From: Plicaturopsis crispa FD-325 SS-3
Lineage: Eukaryota > Basidiomycota > Agaricomycetes > Amylocorticiales > Amylocorticiaceae
Length of the DNA: 64,000 bases
Reading direction: 5' to 3'
Assembly (NCBI GenBank): GCA_000827205.1
Contig: KN832573.1
Coordinates: 281,610 to 345,609, forward strand
Positions 50,121 to 64,000 of the stretch are shown one piece after another. A program made the position numbers and the translations under genes. Each line of letters opens with the position of its first letter. Positions within the stretch are counted from its first letter, which is position 1. Under the pieces are notes generated by a model. It had not been told where the DNA came from. It made no database searches and saw nothing but the letters and a program-made list of their open reading frames with translations.

Positions 50121-50749
50121 TCAGCCCCAGGCCGCTGTTGTACTGAACACTTGGTGAGCAGCGATACAGAGCCACGAGAAGTACTATGCCATACCTGTAG
50201 TTTACTATTAAGTGCTGATCCGTTGCAAACGACTAAAAGGTGTAAACTTGATGAATTTGATGAATGTATAGTTGGGCTGGCACAAAATACCTTGAACAGG
50301 TTGGAGACGGTGTCGTCGGGTGCAGGCGAGAATGCAAGGTTAATGTAGGTGAACTAAAGAGAGGTGGCTCTATCAGAACACCGCAGCACAGGATCGCTTC
50401 GTGATTAACAACTGGCGCACCAACGGATCCCCCGCTTTCCAGTTCAGCTCCTTCCTCAGAAACTGGATCACTGCTTGGAAACGATTCGACGCAGTTATCT
50501 TGTAGAAGTTCTGCTTCATGATCGGTGCATTTCCAACTGCTTTGAAGCGGACGACAACTACGCAGTCGCGTGGTCAACGGTTGGTGATAACTGAGCTTGA
50601 GGAGTGTCTTGCTCACCTTTCGACGGGTCCTTCTTCTTGTACGTTTCGAGTGCCTGAATGGCTTCAGCTATGTTTTCGCCAGCGTCGGGAGCGGCCCAAA
50701 GTCTGTCAGCACGCCCATGAGCGTCAGGACTTCCAGGAGCATGGGCCAT
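50121..50749 (-). CDS. ATG12: Ubiquitin-like autophagy protein ATG12
   Basis: Ubiquitin-like modifier joined through its C-terminal Gly to ATG5; the conjugate promotes ATG8 lipidation in autophagosome formation. Five small exons hide it from simple frame scans. The ATG at 50749 begins [18 protein letters not shown] (the in-frame codon seven before it is TTG). Exon 1 runs through TYKKKDPSK. After an intron (GTGAGC donor) exon 2 gives [19 protein letters not shown] and [14 protein letters not shown]. Exon 3 gives [20 protein letters not shown], exon 4 [12 protein letters not shown], and exon 5 STTAAWG before TGA at 50121-50123. The beta-grasp fold segments and the terminal Trp-Gly are as in known ATG12 proteins. 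About 140-145 residues. The gene is divergent from the DUF6533 gene at 51290. Confidence 0.88.
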
Positions 50750-51289
50750 ATGCGTGGTGGCGTGAAGCAAGCGAGGCGATCGAGAATTAAAGCAGCGCTA
50801 AAAGCTCCGTTTCGACGACGCGGCTCGCTTATTTCTGTTCGCATACCGCCTCTTGCTCTTTGATGCTGCCCGACGGCGACGGCGACGACAACATACGCTT
50901 GACGACGACGCTAAAGTGTACAGCATCTCGGATGTCGTCGCGCTCGGACGACGACGACGACGTTTCGGTGGCGCTCACCTTGTGCGATCAAAGATCAGTT
51001 CCTTGCGCGAGTGCACACGGCACAGCACCACCTGGCTCGCGGACTGGGCGTCTTCCCAACCACGTTGGTTAGCTGCAGTAAAGATGCACTCTAAACATAT
51101 ACACTCAGACCATCATGTCTGCATTGCCTGTCCACGCGCCCGGGAGAAAACCGGGTCCCTGGCAAATCACAGAGATAACGGTACCGCGAGCAAGTACTTT
51201 AGACGGGCGCGGTACACTATGCGTACAATTCTTCCCCTTCTTCACCCCCTTAGCCGCGCTGCCTGGCGCTCAGCGACTAAACGACGACC
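50750..51289. promoter_or_regulatory. Shared upstream region of ATG12 and the DUF6533 gene
   Basis: 540 bases between two divergent starts. Contains GAC/GACG-rich microsatellite-like runs near 50870-50965. Homology to the second DUF6533 copy begins only at about 51226 (CAATTCT), so most of this upstream region is not shared with that copy. Confidence 0.5.
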
Positions 51290-53502
51290 ATGTCGGCGTT
51301 TGCTTCGGCTTCTACTGCCCCAGTAGGATCCGAGTCTGTATTGGATATGCTTTGGCATACAGAACAGACCAAGTGAGCTCCCCCCTGCTCAACTGATTTA
51401 CGTGTCTTTGTGGCTTACTGGTATCACAGGATGATGATACGTGAGATATCCCATGAATTCATTCACTTGTCGACGGGATTTAAACGATGGTTATAGTCTC
51501 GGGAGTGACTGTGCTCACATACGACCACATACTCACTGTAAGCGTGAACCATCTTACGCTGATTTATGGCGGCTAACTTTTTTCACCGTTTAGTTCAACG
51601 AAGAGGTGCGCTTTTCGAGTGGCCGGCTCTGTAACGACCAAACTGATAATTCTGCGTGAAGTTGAATCTGATATGGCGCTCAAAAATTGGTCTGGTTTCG
51701 TGGATCTTCCTTTTCGTGCGTATGTTTACCATCGGCGCCCCTACATGTGCTAATTCAGTTGCAAATTCCAGAACCGATACCTAGTGTAAGCCACTGCACT
51801 CGTACTCGTGAAAATGTCTCATCTATCCATCAGGCCCGCACTATTGGCCGTTGACATATACGGTATGCAGCAATGTTCTCGATCTGCCCATGCGTTGATT
51901 AACATTCTCGCAGAGAATTTCTATCTCGATATGCCGTATCATCAGGAGATCCAAGTTTGTAGCTACCCCACGTTTACTCGTTTCGGATATTGACTGCATC
52001 CTCACCGCTAGTTCTGCAAACTATGGACCATGATACAAGGTTATCTCACTATCCTGTCGTTCATGTCGATCCATGGTGTGTACACACTTCTCTTTTCCTC
52101 AAAATCATTTCTAACTTGATGCAGTGATCGTCGCATTTAGAGTCTATGCGCTTCATGGTGGACGCCCTTGGGTAGGCAGAGTCCTATGGGCCGCCGGGAT
52201 CATTTACACGGTTGTGTGTCTTGGTCTGTCGACCCTCGCACAGCTCCCCCAAACATGTAGGTCCGAAATGTATACCATCTGTACGAGTCTCTGACATCTA
52301 TATAGCGCCATGGCCGGACTCTGTCAGAGTTGTATGGCATCAATGTCTTGGCTCCGTAAGTGCACTTCTACTATTTCCACGCGGTAGATGGAGTCTCAAC
52401 ACATTTCGTCCAGATACCGAGTTGGAGCTGGGCAATATGGCTCCCGAGGTTTGTTCGATCTGTTTTACGCTAGATCCCACATGCGCTGACCTCCCTGTAG
52501 TGTCGTGTTTGAGACACTGCTGTTCGGCCTCACTATGGCCGCTGCTCTATGCCAGACGACCGATGGCGTGAGTTTCAACTCGATGTACCAAATTCTTTAC
52601 CGAGACGGAATTTTATATTTCTTGGCCGTCTCTTGTGAGTCTTTTCTGCGATAGTTTATGCGCCAATTTGCTCATATATGAGTTTCCCTGCAGTGTGCTC
52701 GTTGTTCTCCCTTCTGTGCGTATCCATCCAACCGCTAATTTGTCCGTCAGTCATCCTAATGCTAAGTATACAGAGTCTGGGTCACAGCTCCACCAAGCCT
52801 CATAGGTTTAGGTCGCTAGTGAGTTGATATCTTTCTCTAGAGACGGACAGGGTCTTATTCTTCTGTAGCTTCGCACTCGCGCTTGTAAACGTCGCCGGAT
52901 CCAGACTCGTGCTGAACCTGAAAGACTATGCCGCGCGGCATCGTGAAGCCATGTCCGAATCTCGGGAGCCCCGCCGGTCCCAGACAGACTCCGAGACGGA
53001 ACTCTGCCCCATCCAGCACCCCATCGCCGACAACTATCCCAGTCCCCAGATGCAGCAGGCGAGGGACGACGAGGAGCGGCAGGGCTACCTCACCCTCGCC
53101 ATTCCCGGGAACGTCTACCACGGCCAGACCCGCAGCCAAGCACATGGGTATGGCAACGACGAAATCCGCGGCTTGACACCCTCGCCAGCACCCTCCTCCG
53201 TAATATACCACCCAGTCGACTCCGCCGCATCCGAAGACTGGAACCAGCGGCGACTCAGCCCTGCGCGCTCGCGGGAAGACTTCGGGCACTACCCACCCAC
53301 CCCCTCGCCACGCCCATCTCCGCAATATGGGCAGTTCGAGCCACGTCCGGGACGCACGAGCCCCACGGCGGCCTGGCGGCTGGAGCGGAAACAGACTCGC
53401 TCGCGCTCGCGCGATTACCTGCGCCAGCCGGACCCGCCGTCACAGATAGAGTCCACGGGCACGGTTTCCGCGATAGAGGTGCTATATGGATACGCGGTGT
53501 AG
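51290..53502 (+). CDS. DUF6533 seven-helix membrane protein, copy 1
   Basis: Member of a large basidiomycete family of predicted seven-transmembrane proteins of unknown function. The ATG at 51290 begins MSAFASASTAPVGSESVLD. Two short introns lead to the DUF6533 signature ILSGVTVLTYDHILT joined to FNEE, then LNLIWRSKIGLVSWIFLF and NRYLV. Later exons carry hydrophobic helices (for example VIVAFRVYALHGGRPWVG with an adjoining helix, and one ending SFALALVNVAGSRLVLNLK). The cytosolic tail from about 52930 is about 190 residues, rich in Pro/Ser/Arg/Gln and acidic patches, ending IEVLYGYAV with TAG at 53500-53502. About ten introns; some middle joins (52250-52800) are approximate. The 5' exons are nearly identical to a second copy at 63689. 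Confidence 0.75.
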
Positions 53503-57580: not shown

Positions 57581-58539
57581 CGTTTTTTCCTCACATTTCT
57601 TCTGAGTTTATTTCATGTTTGCCCCATCCGTCTTTCGCTATCCTGCATATCATCGTGTTTTGACCACACTGCCACCCGTGCTATCCGGTATTGTGATTTT
57701 GCCACCGCCCTTTAGTCCCTCCGCGGACCTCCCGACCCCACTCATCGCTCCGAGTCGGACATACCGCGGTTGGGATGGCTAAATTCTATCTTCAAGTTCC
57801 GCGTTGACTTCTATTTGCGACTCCTTCCTCCGCCGGGGGTTCGTATGTTTGTGCAGTGGACGCTGCGAGTCCGGCTCGCCAGACTCAAACGCTCGACGAG
57901 ATCAAACCCTCATCACAATTGTATAGGATTGTATAGACGTCGACGTGCGCCGTGACGGCTCCCCGTTTGTACGCCTGGACATCACCCAGTACTTGAGTCT
58001 TGGGTGCTGATATGCTGAAACCACATCTTGCAGTGCCACCACTGCGCGAGGCGTAGTATGCAGTTGCGAAAACTGGAACCCGAAACTTACCGCCCTTGGT
58101 CCTTCCTTCCTCCAGATGGCTAGTCTACGAAACAGGGCCCCCGTAGGCGCCCGTTCTGCGTCTGCATGCGTAGGGAAGCCGGCTAATTTTCTATCTGATA
58201 TCGATGGCTGTGCTTAACAGGCGCCGGCCCACCAGCAGACACGCTACGCGGCAAACGCTACGACCGGTAATCATATGTACGGTTTCAGGTGGGTTGAGTT
58301 TCAGGCTTCCGTCGTGTGGCATTTTGCTCAACTGCGACATATCTCCGTGTCGTCCACAGGAATGTTCTTTTCTTTCAGCGGCAGGTTGGCGGCAGGATGA
58401 CTGGGTATAAGACGAGGGGGTGTCGGCCATGATTCCCTAGGCTAGCCCTCCCGTTCGACGTCTCGCTCTCGTTTTCACTTTCGCTTTCGCCCTCATTCTT
58501 TATTTCTTCATTTAATCATTAATCTTTGTCGTGCTAGCC
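57581..58539. other. Upstream region of secreted family member A
   Basis: No gene is seen. The right part is a diverged copy of the module seen upstream of genes B (60638-61315) and C (63021-63631), for example GTCTACGAAACAGGG near 58123 and the CTAGGCTAGCCCTCCC box near 58437. Confidence 0.55.
58406..58412 (+). promoter_or_regulatory. TATA-like box of gene A
   Basis: TATAAGA 134 bases before the ATG, at the position matching the TATAAAG of gene B, and followed by the conserved GGCTAGCCCTCCC box. Confidence 0.5.
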
Positions 58540-59669
58540 ATGGCTCGTTTTTCTTCGTCGTTCATGAGCCTTTTCGTCTTGTTATTGGTATCGAATGCGT
58601 TTGCCGCTGTCATACCACTCGTATGTCCTTTCCTCTTCTACTGCTGCATTCGCTCACTTACCGTTGATCAAAACCTATCCTTGTTATAGGAGCGTGTAAG
58701 TACTTTCTACGTCGGTATAATAACTAGCTCCCGTGCTGATCATGCCTTTCTTTTTTACAGCGCTTGGAGGTGCGCGCACTCAATCGGGTTGACCCTTTAT
58801 TCGAGGGCCAAGTGCCCATCGAGGCATCGGAGCGTAAGTCGTCAGATGTTTACGTCGTGAATCGCATTTTGATCTAGCTATAAACCTACCAGAGCTCCCG
58901 CGGGACATCGAAGCGAGGAAATTCACCTCTAAACCGAAAATTGGCACTCCAAAAGTCAGCACCCCGAAAACCGGCACCAGCACTCCGAAATTCAGTCTCC
59001 CGAAGATCACTCTCCCGAAATTCGGGAAGCCGAAGACGACTGCTGCGCCCCCCAAAGCCACTCCTACGCCTCCTAAGCCCACAGCGACCAAAGCTCAGTC
59101 CGCGCCCCCGGCCACACAAACACCAACGGACGAGCCCGAGGAATCATCGGGGAGCAGCCTTGACCCAAACCGCATACTCGACACCATCGACGGCGCCATT
59201 CCGATCTTGGGCCAGATCCTCAACCGTCCGAGCAACGAGCAGCAGGTCCCTACGGACCCTACCACAGCGGACCCTGGGGCGCTCGAAGATCCCTCGGCGG
59301 CGAACGGGACTGTCACTGATGATGGTAGCGATGCTTCCGCCTCCACTTCCGTCAGCAGCACCAGTGCCAGCGCAACAGCGACAGCGACGTCCACTGCGTC
59401 GGTAGATGCCGCTGCTACTGCCTCCCCATCTGTTAAGAAAGGGGACGGGAAAGGGTCAGGAAAGGGGCACTCTAGCACCGCGGCCAGTGCTACCGTGTCT
59501 GCCACCGCTTCCGCTGCGACCCCAAGCGCGAGCAAGGCGAGTGGTGACGCTGCTGCCGTTCCGCTCGGTACGCCTGTTCCCCGTGAACTCGTTTTTCTCT
59601 CGAGGCTGACTTATTGACGGGGTTACCTTTTCAGAGGCGCGTTATGCTCGCTATGCCCGCGAATATTAG
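58540..59669 (+). CDS. Secreted low-complexity protein, family member A (unrecognised)
   Basis: Not assignable to a known family. The ATG at 58540 gives the signal peptide MARFSSSFMSLFVLLLVSNAFA. Very short second and third exons follow (58690-58700 and 58761-58832 region). Then comes a Lys/Pro/Thr block with repeated PK units (KIGTPKVSTPKTGTSTPKF), a helix-like stretch LDTIDGAIPILGQIL, the motif GALEDPSAANGTVTDDGS, and a long Ala/Ser/Thr tract likely to be O-glycosylated. The last exon, after an intron with a GTACGC donor near 59572, is EARYARYAREY, with TAG at 59667-59669. The same signal peptide, motif and Arg/Tyr tail occur in gene B. It may be a cell-wall or matrix protein, or be cut at Lys/Arg sites into peptides; both are inference. 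About 285 residues. Confidence 0.7.
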
Positions 59670-60637
59670 GCCGGTATGGAAGACGTTCAGAACGCCCGCG
59701 GCTGGCTTGAGGCTGTGGAACACGAGATTTATTTGGCATTGACACGAGGATATGATTACTACATTGATTAATTTTGTCGGTGATATAGACATGGATTTGG
59801 GACGACGAGCAGCTAGGAACCAGAGCTCAGTCTGAGAAGCCAGACCGAAGGCTGCCAGATCGAATTTAGGCCAGAGTCTAGTCTCATACCAAGAACGTGT
59901 GGGGTTTGATCCGAACCTAGGCCAGAGTCGAAGCATGAGAAGGGGTGAGGCGGGGGTACAGCTGTATTGGATGCAGCACTCGCAGACTCGAGGTGATGGG
60001 CTGCCAGGGTTCGAGGAGAGGCACAAACATATCTTGAGGGGACACACTCGCAGATTAGAGAGGCGCTTACGGCGAGAAGCAAGCCCTATCTCGCGGAGAG
60101 ACGCTTCCTCATCTGAGCTCGAAAGTGCACGTCCAACTTTCGCTGAGACGGGGCCAGCTCCAAGGACAAGCGCTGGATGCCTCTTCGAAGCTGATCGACT
60201 TCGCAAAGTTCGCATAGCCAGTGCACGGACCTGTAAAGCCTCAGTAACGTTAACGACGAGCATGCATGGGTCTTGGTTCGAGTCAGGCGCACAAAATACG
60301 AGCTCTGACTCACGCGTATAGCGAGCCGTGGTATTTGGCTGCGGGAGGAGGAGGAGAAGTCCGGAAAAACTTCGGCCTGACGCGTCGACGCGCTCGTGCC
60401 ACGTGGGTCCCGTTGACAAGCAAGTTCGAATGCCGTTCTGCAACTTCAATCTGCAAGGGCAACTTGCTTTCAACCAACGACATATCGACTCGGAATTCAC
60501 GTTTCCGTCCGTACACAGCGCTGAAAATGAACCTCCATTTAGACGTATGCCTCTCGCAAAGACTCCTGGCATACCGACAATATCAGACCCGAATGTCGGG
60601 CAATAGGGCTTTTCGGTTTCACGACGGTAATTCCAGT

Positions 60638-61315
60638 AAGTCGGGCGCTTGACAAGAACTTCTCCCGGGCATGGGTAGTCCAGGATCTCGAGTCAGATAT
60701 CGATCTGAAATTTGCCAGTAAGCCTTTTTCGACTGCGTCGCGTGCGTCTCAAACTAATTTTCGGTCTACCATCTCCTCACCGACAGGATAAGTATGGGCA
60801 TGTGTTCCGATGAAGAGCGAGGCTTCCAGCCCCATATTCTGTCCGGGCAGAATGCGACTGAGATGCCAGCTCAGACACTCGCTGCAGCCTGACACCATGG
60901 CAATTAGCCTGAAGCGGGTTCGTAAGTTCGAAAGGAACATCATGTCTGCAGCGGAATGGATGGTCTACGAAACAGGGTGTTGCACTCTCATCATCGAACG
61001 CCAGCCTGATCCCGTATGCATTCCTTGATGCTGGCCCGCACGTAGGCGCCGGTGAGTGGCAGTTTTTCCGCACTTTCGCGCTCTCCGAGTTGCTAGCTTG
61101 CAGTTTCAATCGCACGATATCTACAGGAATATGATATTCTCCCGCCGCGACATAGGGCGACGGGCAGTATAAAGGGCAGGGAGTGTGGCCTGCATTCCCC
61201 AGGCTAGCCCTCCCATTCAACGACCTTCGCTTTCGCTTTCACGCTCACTTTCGCCCTCACTCTCTACTCCTACCCCTTCTAATCCCCATTTATTTTGCCT
61301 ATTACCGTGCTAGCC
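60638..61315 (+). repeat. Duplicated upstream module, copy B
   Basis: Shares many long blocks with copy C (63021-63631): ATCTCGAGTCAGATA, GACACCATGGCAAT, TAAGTTCGAAAGGAA, CGCCAGCCTGATCCCGT, GATGCTGGCCCGCAC, CTCCCGCCGCGACATAGG and CATTCCCCAGGCTAGCCCTCC. It ends at the ATG of gene B. Confidence 0.8.
61168..61174 (+). promoter_or_regulatory. TATA-like box of gene B
   Basis: TATAAAG 148 bases before the ATG, inside the conserved module. Confidence 0.55.
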
Positions 61316-62414
61316 ATGGCCCGTTTCTCTTCGTCGCTCATGAACCTGTTCGTCCTGCTCTTGGCATCCAATGCATTCGCCGCTGCCATTCCTGTTGTAC
61401 GTCCCCTCGATGCCCTAGTGTCGCACCGCCCGCCTACTAATCTACGTCTTTGTCACAGGCACGCGTAAGTGCTAGTAATGAAGCTCGGAGCACGCAGATG
61501 CTGATGTTCTCGCAGGAGTTGGACTTGCGCGCGCCCGCGCCAAACATTGAGGATTTCGTTAACAAGATTCTCAGCCCAGTCATAGACAAGCTCTCCGGTC
61601 CCGTGCTGCGATCGGAATCCACAGCGCGCCCCGACGACGCCTCTGAGTGTGAGTAGTCGAGCATCACCTAGTCACCGTTGATACCTAGAGCTCTGACACC
61701 TCTTGAAGTGTCTCTTGAGCTCAGGCGGGGCATAGAAAGGCGGTTAAATGCTAGGACTGTCAAGGAACCGGCGTCAGTGGCCAAGGAACCTGCTACTGTG
61801 CACAAGCCAGCCGCCGTCGAGCCCAAGCCACCCGCTGTCGCGCCCAAGCTACCCGCCAACGAGCCCAAGCCAAACGCTGTCACGCCCAAGCCACCCGCCG
61901 ACGAGCCCAAGCCACCCGTCGACGAGCCCAAACCAGCTACCACTCAGCCCAAAGCTGACACTGCTCCGTCCCAGCCAGCTGCTGCTCAATCCAAGGAGGC
62001 AGCTGAGCCGCCCAAGGCTCCTCCTGCTTCTTCCAAGGAGAGCTCTTCGACGCTAGACAAAATCGAAACGGCACTCCATGGTGTTGACACGACTGTCGCC
62101 GCCCTGGGCACCATCCCCTCGCTCATCCACAATAGCGACCCGCAGGGTCTCGCTTCTCCAGCTTCCGACACTCCGGCAGCGCTGCAAGACCCGTCAGCGA
62201 CGAACGGGACCGTCATCGATGGTGGTAACGGCAGCAACTCCACGGCCTCAGCCAGCGGAAGTGCGACTGCCAGCGCGGCGACTGGCTCTGCTACCGGTGC
62301 ACTCGGTAAGCCTGGTTTCGGAAACATGTCCCGAAGTCTAAGCACTGACATCCGTTCGTTATTTTCTCAGGTGCGCGTCAACTACGCTACTCCCGCTATG
62401 TCCGCGGTCAATGA
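61316..62414 (+). CDS. Secreted low-complexity protein, family member B (unrecognised)
   Basis: Paralog of gene A in the same orientation 1.65 kb downstream. The ATG at 61316 gives the signal peptide MARFSSSLMNLFVLLLASNAFA. Exons then encode a segment with LDLRAPAPNIEDFVNKILSP and IDKLSGPVLRSES. The third major exon carries a Pro/Lys repeat of about 7-8 residues (EPKPPAVAPKLPANEPKPNA and similar) from a minisatellite at about 61788-61960. Next are a helical stretch with LDKIETALHGVDTTVAALG, the shared motif AALQDPSATNGTVIDGGN, and an Ala/Ser/Thr tract. The last intron (GTAAGC donor near 62306) joins to ARQLRYSRYVRGQ, with TGA at 62412-62414. The shared ends and motif but divergent middle indicate fast evolution of the repeat region. 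Function unknown. Confidence 0.7.
61788..61960 (+). repeat. Coding minisatellite in gene B (Glu-Pro-Lys-Pro units)
   Basis: Seven or so degenerate units of about 21-24 bases around GAGCCCAAGCCACCCGC, translated as repeats of [DN]EPKPPA type. Length changes here would stay in frame. Confidence 0.7.
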
Positions 62415-63020
62415 GCGGCAGGATACGAGTGACATGTGCTTATGACAGTGAGCGGGGAGTGTAGACGCGATGACAGATTTTACCATCGGACTACTTGGTA
62501 TCTGAGTCATTTGTTTTCTGAGTGCTGGTCATGATGATACAGACAGACATTTTGCCTCCGCCTCGGAGTCAATTCATTGTCAATTCACGCCACACGGATT
62601 GAGTATTTCTATTTGGCACATCTGCAATAATTCTCGTGCATATAATCGCACCTTCGTTGAGCGATTTCTTACTACTATGTCTACGAGGGCTGGTGGGCAC
62701 ACGAGGATCCTTGTGCGCTTGACTCCCATGTTCGTCGTTGACGTAACCGAAGTTGGCGCGAGACGGCTGGGCGATGCCGACCAGCTTCAAAGACTCGGAG
62801 GCGACCAGCGCTTGTCTTCGAAATCTGTCACGGTCTCAGCGAAGCTGAACGTGCGTCGTGCGCCTTCGAACCTGAACCGCAACAAGGACGTGCCTCTCTG
62901 CAAGATAGAGCATGTTTCGCGCTGAAAGCGTCTCACGAATTTTGATCTGCCAACCTTGCGCGTAACCACATTCGCGCGACGCGTGTGCGTCCCCTTCAGT
63001 TTTACAAGGGCATCTTCATC
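62415..63020. other. Intergenic after gene B
   Basis: 3' region of gene B; no gene is supported. It does not clearly match the region after gene A. Confidence 0.45.
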
Positions 63021-63631
63021 AAGTCGGGCGTCTCCTCCATCCGGGCCTGAATACTCCAGAATCTCGAGTCAGATACTATCAGTCTGAGATGCCAGTAAGC
63101 CTTTTTTCGTCAGTGTCTGCGTCGCGTGAGTCTCAAGCTAATTTTTGCTCTACGATTCAGCTCATCGACAAGATAAGGGCACGAGTCTCACTGCGGAACG
63201 AGACCTCCACTCCCAATCCTATAATGGCGGGGGCAGATGCGCTCGAGACGCCAGCTTGGAAACCCGCTGCGGCCCGACACCATGGCAATGAGCCTGAAGT
63301 AGGGCCGTAAGTTCGAAAGGAATATATTGCATTGTATCTGCAGTGGGTTGGATCGTCTGCGGGACAGGTTATAGGATGCGCATCATCACACGCCAGCCTG
63401 ATCCCGTCTGCATCTCTGATGCTGGCCCGCACATAGGCGCCGGTGGGTGGCAGCTTCTAATCCTTCTGCGCACTTTTACGTTCTCCGAGTTGACAGCTTG
63501 CCATTCTAGTCGCACGATATCGACAGGAATCTCTTGTTCTCCCGCCGCGACATAGGCCGATGGGCAGCCCCAAGAGGATAAAGGGCGGGTGCGTGTAGCC
63601 AGCATTCCCCAGGCTAGCCCTCCGCAATTCT
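63021..63631 (+). repeat. Duplicated upstream module, copy C, joined to a DUF6533 gene
   Basis: Copy of the upstream module of the secreted family, running through a GATAAAG box (63578-63584) and CATTCCCCAGGCTAGCCCTCC. At 63625-63631 (CAATTCT) it switches to sequence matching the immediate upstream of DUF6533 copy 1 (51226-51232 onward) instead of the secreted gene's 5' leader. Confidence 0.8.
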
Positions 63632-63688
63632 GTTCACTTTCTACCACTTTAGCCGTGTTGCCTGGTGCTCAGCGACTTAACGACGACC

Positions 63689-64000
63689 ATGTCGGCGTTA
63701 GCTTCTCCTACCTCAGCAGGATCCGAGTCTGTATTGGATATACTTTGGCATACAGAACATACCAAGTAAGTCTTTCTCCCCCTGCTCAACTTGTTTACAT
63801 TTCTTTTGTGGCTTACTGGCATCACAGGATGATGATACGTGAGCTATTCCAACTCCTCAATCACTTGTCGACGGAATTGAAACAAAAACAATAGTCTCGG
63901 GAGTGACTGTGCTCACGTACGACCACATACTTACAGTAAGCATCACCCAAAATATGCTGGTTTCTGACGGCTAACTTTTTCTATCGTCTAGTTCAACGAG
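63689..64000 (+). CDS. DUF6533 seven-helix membrane protein, copy 2 (runs off the window end)
   Basis: The ATG at 63689 begins MSALASPTSAGSESVLD. Two introns at the same places as in copy 1 (donors GTAAGT and GTGAGC) give the signature ILSGVTVLTYDHILT joined to FNE at the window end. The intron sequences are also similar to copy 1 (for example CTCAATCACTTGTCGACGG against CATTCACTTGTCGACGG), so the duplication is fairly recent. Only about 46 residues are inside the window. Its promoter appears to be that of the secreted-protein family. Function unknown. Confidence 0.75.

Follow-up and report, generated by a model that had tools for sequence, protein, structure and literature searches.

Probable duplicative insertion of a DUF6533 gene into the start region of a tandemly arrayed secreted-protein gene

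Introduction

Promoter capture by duplicated genes is an often proposed route to new expression, and the traces of such events are often lost. The locus described here raises the question of how the coding region of a DUF6533 gene came to be joined to the upstream region of an unrelated secreted-protein gene. The initial annotation had read this arrangement as a promoter exchange that placed a membrane-protein gene under a foreign promoter. A foreign upstream region is indeed joined to the leader and exons of the gene, but the arrangement is best read as that of an insertion and not of a promoter exchange, because the secreted-gene promoter and its leader are resumed past the second DUF6533 copy (D2), with the last 46 bp present twice. 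Based on sequence comparison, it is proposed (probability about 0.85) that D2 arose as a DNA-level duplicative insertion, with target duplication, of a segment of the first DUF6533 copy (D1, the donor) into the start region of gene C, the third of three tandem secreted-protein genes (A, B and C).

Sequences and Numbering

The window is the whole stretch of DNA that was analysed, 64,000 nucleotides corresponding to positions 281610-345609 of contig C20 (463,143 bp) in a genome of 33.2 Mb and 49 contigs. Past the window edge the window numbering was continued, and position p of the adjoining sequence L003 equals 63990 + p. We infer gene C from its promoter and leader only; gene B, in the same genome, was used as the paralogous empty site, i.e., as the reference state. 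The likelihoods expressed below for the alternative explanations are not strictly mutually exclusive. The coordinates of the features are collected in Table 1.

Table 1. Features of the donor, the inserted copy and the tandem secreted-protein genes.
Feature	Position	Strand	Evidence
Secreted gene A: promoter end, leader and first coding exon	58415..58628	+	75% identical to 61178-61404
Module upstream of secreted gene B, serving as the uninterrupted reference	60665..61213	+	Matches 63041-63623
TATA-like element and leader of gene B, unbroken there and interrupted by D2 in C	61168..61315	+	Alignment to both D2 flanks
Upstream module of the putative third tandem secreted copy (C), now directly 5' of D2	63041..63623	+	437/542 ungapped columns identical to B, 48 gaps
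Left target copy, 46 bp	63578..63623	+	18-mer ATAAAGGGCGGGTGCGTG; score against right copy
Right target copy, 53 bp (54 with the G at 65572)	L003:1583-1635 = 65573-65625	+	18-mer ATAAAGGGCGGGTGCGTG; score against left copy
Donor block in D1: 64-bp leader, ATG at 51290, 15 introns and part of the last exon	51226..53166	+	
D1 gene, 16 exons, 466 aa, PF20151 (DUF6533)	51290..53502	+	Gene model; Pfam
Start of the inserted D2, which runs to 65571 = L003:1581	63625..64000	+	Homology to D1
D2 coding region, 16 exons, 356 aa, to L003:1587	63689..64000 (window part)	+	Gene model; Pfam

The Upstream Module and the Left Joint

The starting point of the initial annotation, namely that the module upstream of gene B occurs a second time in front of a DUF6533 gene, was confirmed by self-BLAST, which returned one contiguous gapped match between 63041-63623 and 60665-61213 (75.0% over 591 columns, E 7e-108); in a global alignment the B and C modules share 437 of 542 ungapped columns, and a further 48 columns contain gaps. 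The module is real, but its alignable part begins at 60665 and 63041 and not, as proposed, at 60638 and 63021. Given its position upstream of B, the module probably corresponds to a promoter. The DNA search of the own genome found it at two places in the 33.2 Mb (two candidates, both scored, no third copy listed), although this search skips very common words and two listed places are therefore not proof of rarity. That the module is a dispersed repeat or transposon was considered and rejected, only two places being listed for the module and two for the D1/D2 block.

The homology between D1 and D2 starts at 51226 and 63625, respectively. Further upstream D1 had been described as carrying an unrelated region, in agreement with a BLAST comparison of 50300-51300 against the window, in which only the D1/D2 match and no copy of the module was found. 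Neither of the two outcomes named by the initial annotation as refutations was therefore obtained. The left joint reads CCCTCC-G-CAATTCT, and at that place gene B has CCCTCCCATTCAACG / CATTCAACG. The CAATTCT stretch, previously placed at the junction and continued into the DUF6533 leader, does belong to the leader common to D1 and D2, but it is present on the DUF6533 side only and B differs there. The joint is located approximately 45 bp downstream of a TATA-like element, so that nothing of the module or of the probable start region is missing ahead of the D2 leader.

Viewed alone, the left joint matches a promoter swap, in which ectopic recombination, or one template switch guided by short homology, would have joined both regions without return to the locus. 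However, at most 1-2 bp of common sequence are recognisable at this joint, the flanks being too diverged, and the short homology invoked by the initial annotation is not evident. The right side of D2, described below, speaks more directly against this reading.

Several minor features were observed in the array. The upstream region of gene A (58123-58137) and the gene B module (60963-60977) have, by eye, the 15-mer GTCTACGAAACAGGG in common, hinting at a highly diverged form of the module upstream of gene A that BLAST did not report. Between the spacers located after A and after B (60054-60204 and 62771-62940), BLAST detected a weak similarity in inverted orientation, with 66% identity over 170 columns and E 1e-6 to 1e-5. 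When the spacer 62560-63020 was used as a genome-wide query, nothing beyond itself was listed at E up to 1, this inverted similarity included. In gene B, 61760-61927 contains seven overlapping 42-base copies in a 21-base register which encode a Pro/Lys-rich repeat.

The Right Joint and the Duplicated Target

D2 ends 1.57 kb past the window edge, at a point within the last exon of the donor D1, and the other end of the event lies at L003:1582. From 65572 onwards the sequence (GTATAAAGGGCGGGTGCGTG...) is again that of a secreted-gene promoter, followed by the leader to about 65691 (compared to B) or 65698 (compared to A), the resumed stretch covering L003:1582 to about 1708. Aligned with 61160-61320 of B, 65572-65712 scored 96.5, the maxima being 44 in 1000 dinucleotide shuffles and 45.5 among 1748 other tiles of the 84-kb region. 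Since the leader is pyrimidine-rich, it was tested apart from the target copies: the leader of the right flank alone scored 73.5, with 2000 shuffles reaching no more than 46.5 and 2862 tiles no more than 41, and the left and right target copies scored 48 against each other, a value reached in none of 2000 shuffles (maximum 26.5). The right flank was detected by direct BLAST and by these score tests, and was not listed as a match of B in the genome-wide DNA searches.

Exactly two places in the 33.2 Mb carry the 18-mer ATAAAGGGCGGGTGCGTG, one on each side of D2 (reversed-read control, 0), and it is absent from A and B; the target copies also have other letters in common that B lacks. The two copies are no longer identical, one alignment giving 36 matches in 47 columns with 6 gap columns and another 29 in 45, which blurs the exact length of the duplication. 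Such divergence would fit an old event, as would the intron differences and the dS of 0.35 between D1 and D2. The left copy contains GATAAA with a 9-bp insert just upstream, where B and the right copy have TATAAA. The left copy is nearer to B (40/44) than the right one (31/44; Fisher p 0.029, with small numbers and one alignment).

With the single joint of the initial annotation, a promoter swap was the obvious reading; it was dropped once the sequence past the window end was read, and must be considered highly improbable, as the right side of D2 is back in the same promoter and leader, overlaps the left side by 46 bp and has letters in common with it that are absent from B. Promoter fusions diagnosed from one joint thus call for a look at the other end.

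The insert has the features of a copy of DNA located elsewhere, introns included, with the target sequence continuous on both sides in the empty-site alignment to B. When the insert and one target copy were removed by script, a B-like promoter-leader was obtained. Compared to B, this simulated empty site showed the figures given above for the module (437/542 identical, 48 gap columns) to the left of the joint and 57/87 identical, with 25 gap columns, to the right, the last bases being beyond the homology; about 16 bp of the B leader adjoining the joint are absent from C.

An alternative is that D2 is flanked by two tandem promoters, those of C and of a fourth copy, the intervening DNA having been replaced, in which case the 46-bp repeat would represent paralogous promoters. 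The family is tandemly arrayed and the coding part of C was not found, so that large losses must have occurred here, and the target copies are quite diverged, all of which would be compatible with a replacement. Nevertheless, both ends would need to land in the same 46 bp by chance, and the 18-mer common to left and right is missing from the other members of the array, which makes this explanation improbable. A duplicated target remains the preferred interpretation of the two flanks.

The Copied Gene

D1 and D2 have the same orientation and are 12.4 kb apart, and copying proceeded from D1 to the C locus. The copied block of 1.95 kb is conserved at 80.7% over 1968 columns (51226-53166 vs 63625-65571, direct BLAST; 81% in the genome search), and the genome search with the donor block listed D1 and D2 only, with no third copy. 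In both gene models the 15 introns are GT-AG (15/15) and occupy the same positions; the 14 internal exons are of equal length in both copies, whereas 10 of the 15 introns are unequal. An 11-base micro-exon, GATGATGATAC, lies between two introns and is kept in both copies (51430-51440 and 63828-63838).

These features bear on the possibility that D2 was carried by a transposon, or is a retrocopy flanked by a target site duplication. In favour of this, the duplicated target on its flanks could be cited. A retrocopy is contradicted by the retention of all 15 introns and by a 3' joint which, read directly, lacks poly(A). Regarding a transposon, a comparison of the 60 bp at each end revealed no terminal inverted repeats beyond chance, the observed scores being attained in 395 and 200 of 500 shuffles, and two copies only are listed in the genome. 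To our knowledge, a target duplication of 46 bp exceeds those produced by DNA transposons. This explanation is considered highly improbable.

Both proteins score well above the Pfam gathering cut-off of 24.1 for PF20151 (D1, 54.7 bits; D2, 55.0 bits). DUF6533 was detected at no fewer than 47 exon-level places in the genome (i.e., at least 47), D1 and D2 not being among them, and the domain of D1/D2 is interrupted by introns. The homology stops at D1 residue 355; the 111 residues that follow in D1 have no counterpart in D2, where a single Val was added, and the D2 protein is accordingly 110 residues shorter (356 vs 466 aa). The last codons of D2 are ATC GTA TAA, and the stop codon is the TAA within TATAAAGG, the TATA box that came with the right target copy. 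A crude hydropathy scan yielded 8 peaks for D1 and 12 for D2, with about six separate stretches in each. SNB1, a DUF6533 protein of Agaricomycetes, is predicted to reside in the plasma membrane with seven helices and an intracellular C-terminus, and the DUF6533 domain is called basidiomycete-specific in that report (PMC10949477); D1 and D2 resemble SNB1 in carrying the same Pfam domain.

Selection and Age

Comparison of D1 and D2 by NG86 yielded a dN of 0.073 and a dS of 0.352, i.e., a ratio of 0.21 (bootstrap 0.14-0.30, 300 resamples), with ratios of 0.22 by YN00 and 0.24 by ML; being pairwise, these values average both lineages and do not assign the constraint to D2 specifically. dN/dS was 0.058/0.393 in the first 275 codons, and in the codons after these 0.129/0.22 by NG86 and 0.116/0.373 by YN00, evidencing weaker constraint in this part. 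The introns are identical at 462 of 666 sites (204 differ; K2P 0.41). In simulations (1000 per distance), an unconstrained frame stayed stop-free with p 0.124, 0.026, 0.003 and 0.002 at 0.05, 0.10, 0.15 and 0.20 substitutions per site, respectively. Provided that the two lineages evolve at the same pace, the relevant distance is about 0.2, one half of that between the introns. Altogether, the exon lengths, the open frame and, with the reservation that applies to a pairwise ratio, the dN/dS suggest that D2 has been kept and may still be in use.

The identity of the B and C modules (437/542) is higher than that of the D1/D2 introns (462/666; p 8e-6), even though B and C would, on the simplest history, have diverged before the arrival of D2. 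A higher identity is the expectation if the captured promoter remains constrained. Gap columns show the opposite tendency (48/590 in the module vs 28/694 in the introns), the module having fewer substitutions and more gaps. Its conservation is thus mixed, and could also result from gene conversion between B and C.

Expression from the Captured Module

It is plausible, and somewhat favoured by the arrangement of the locus, that D2 transcription is driven by the captured module, with an uncertain strength of the core promoter in front of D2 given the GATAAA and the 9-bp insert of the left target copy. It is also possible, albeit doubtful, that the insertion is real (this reading overlaps with the preferred one regarding the structure) and that D2 is decaying or driven by its own leader, the captured module being irrelevant, in line with the loss of the D1 C-terminus, the weaker constraint in the remaining tail and the altered TATA-like element on the left. 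Against decay stand the 356-codon open frame, the splice ends, all of them kept, the constant internal exon lengths and the dN/dS of 0.21, and against the irrelevance of the module, the closer resemblance of the left target copy to B.

Within the preferred reading, that of a duplicative insertion with a captured module, it may tentatively be hypothesized that one break-repair event both shortened the DUF6533 protein, through a stop codon derived from a TATA box, and placed it under the promoter of the secreted array, selection having kept the copy while the secreted gene was lost. If true, this would represent a single-step origin of a gene with a changed tail and changed expression.

A Model for the Insertion

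The proposed sequence of events would begin with a tandem array of three copies of the secreted-protein gene, including a formerly complete gene C. In the start region of C the DNA would have broken, or a replication fork would have stalled, and the repair would have drawn on 1.95 kb copied from D1, from its leader (51226) to a point in its last exon (53166), leaving the last 46 bp of the C promoter and start region on both flanks of the insert. D2 retained the leader, the ATG, the 15 introns and the frame, and ends at a TAA that forms part of the TATA box in the target copy downstream. It now lies directly behind the C module, the coding part of C being no longer detectable nearby.

Two routes may be envisaged. 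In the first, with which the repair-mediated duplications, the patch-mediated repair of rice and the Pol alpha-primase fill-in cited below agree, a staggered break would be filled in and copied DNA captured. In the second, a replication fork would switch to D1 and return 46 bp behind its departure point. The joints, too old for a choice between break repair and template switching, fit either.

Relation to Known Systems

Events of this kind are already known, and D2 is a well-preserved and clear example in which the short duplicated flanks are still visible. A like case was not recognised in the literature as judged from titles and the beginnings of abstracts, which is no proof of absence from print. 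In a 2009 study, same-chromosome DNA copied to a second site without poly(A) was ascribed to imperfect double-strand break repair (PMC2671141). According to the sections of that article considered here, the events classified with confidence are no more than 5 kb away from their donor and measure at most 619 bp, whereas those from further away (up to 3,424 bp) were regarded as not confidently classifiable; microhomology is 2-9 nt, and target duplications of 4-21 nt occur at 12 of 17 poly(A)/T-tailed sites. D2 resembles these cases as a same-chromosome copy without poly(A), and differs from them in its size of 1.95 kb, its distance of 12.4 kb, its 46-bp target duplication, its microhomology of at most 1-2 bp and its occurrence in a fungus.

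In rice, patch-mediated break repair (Vaughn and Bennetzen, 2014, as cited in PMC7407515) involves asymmetrical nicks and end joining and leaves tandem or partly tandem duplications and DNA of other donors at the break, with insertions of 10-1000 bp; D2, in contrast, is nearly a whole gene. Fill-in at 3' overhangs by Pol alpha-primase is described in PMC8355091. In grasses, gene movement by filler DNA (Wicker et al., 2010, as summarised in the relevant passage of PMC3445842) accompanies transposon insertion, whereas no transposon ends were found at D2 and the landing site is a start region.

Within 15 kb the present locus still displays the donor, both joints, the duplicated target and, in a paralogue, the empty site; the inserted gene itself has apparently been kept. 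For a mushroom-type fungus the locus is a concrete, testable case in which an entire gene with many introns would have been moved behind a different promoter by break repair (or template switching).

Sequences Downstream of D2

Convincing coding exons of gene C were not detected in the 18 kb that follow the leader, where the best DNA match had an E of 0.32. Three tblastn matches at E 0.002-0.007 (75741-75929, 73653-73946 and 77664-77804), among the matches listed with the low-complexity filter off, cover residues 81-182 of the query, a Pro/Lys/Ala-rich region, and were judged compositional and rejected as remnants of C. On the minus strand, L003:1986-2594 contains an open frame matching DUF6534 (PF20152), located 3' of D2 and convergent with it. 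Mutually similar stretches (66120-66490, 69831-70144 and 82105-82463) recur downstream of D2, suggesting a local cluster of related genes.
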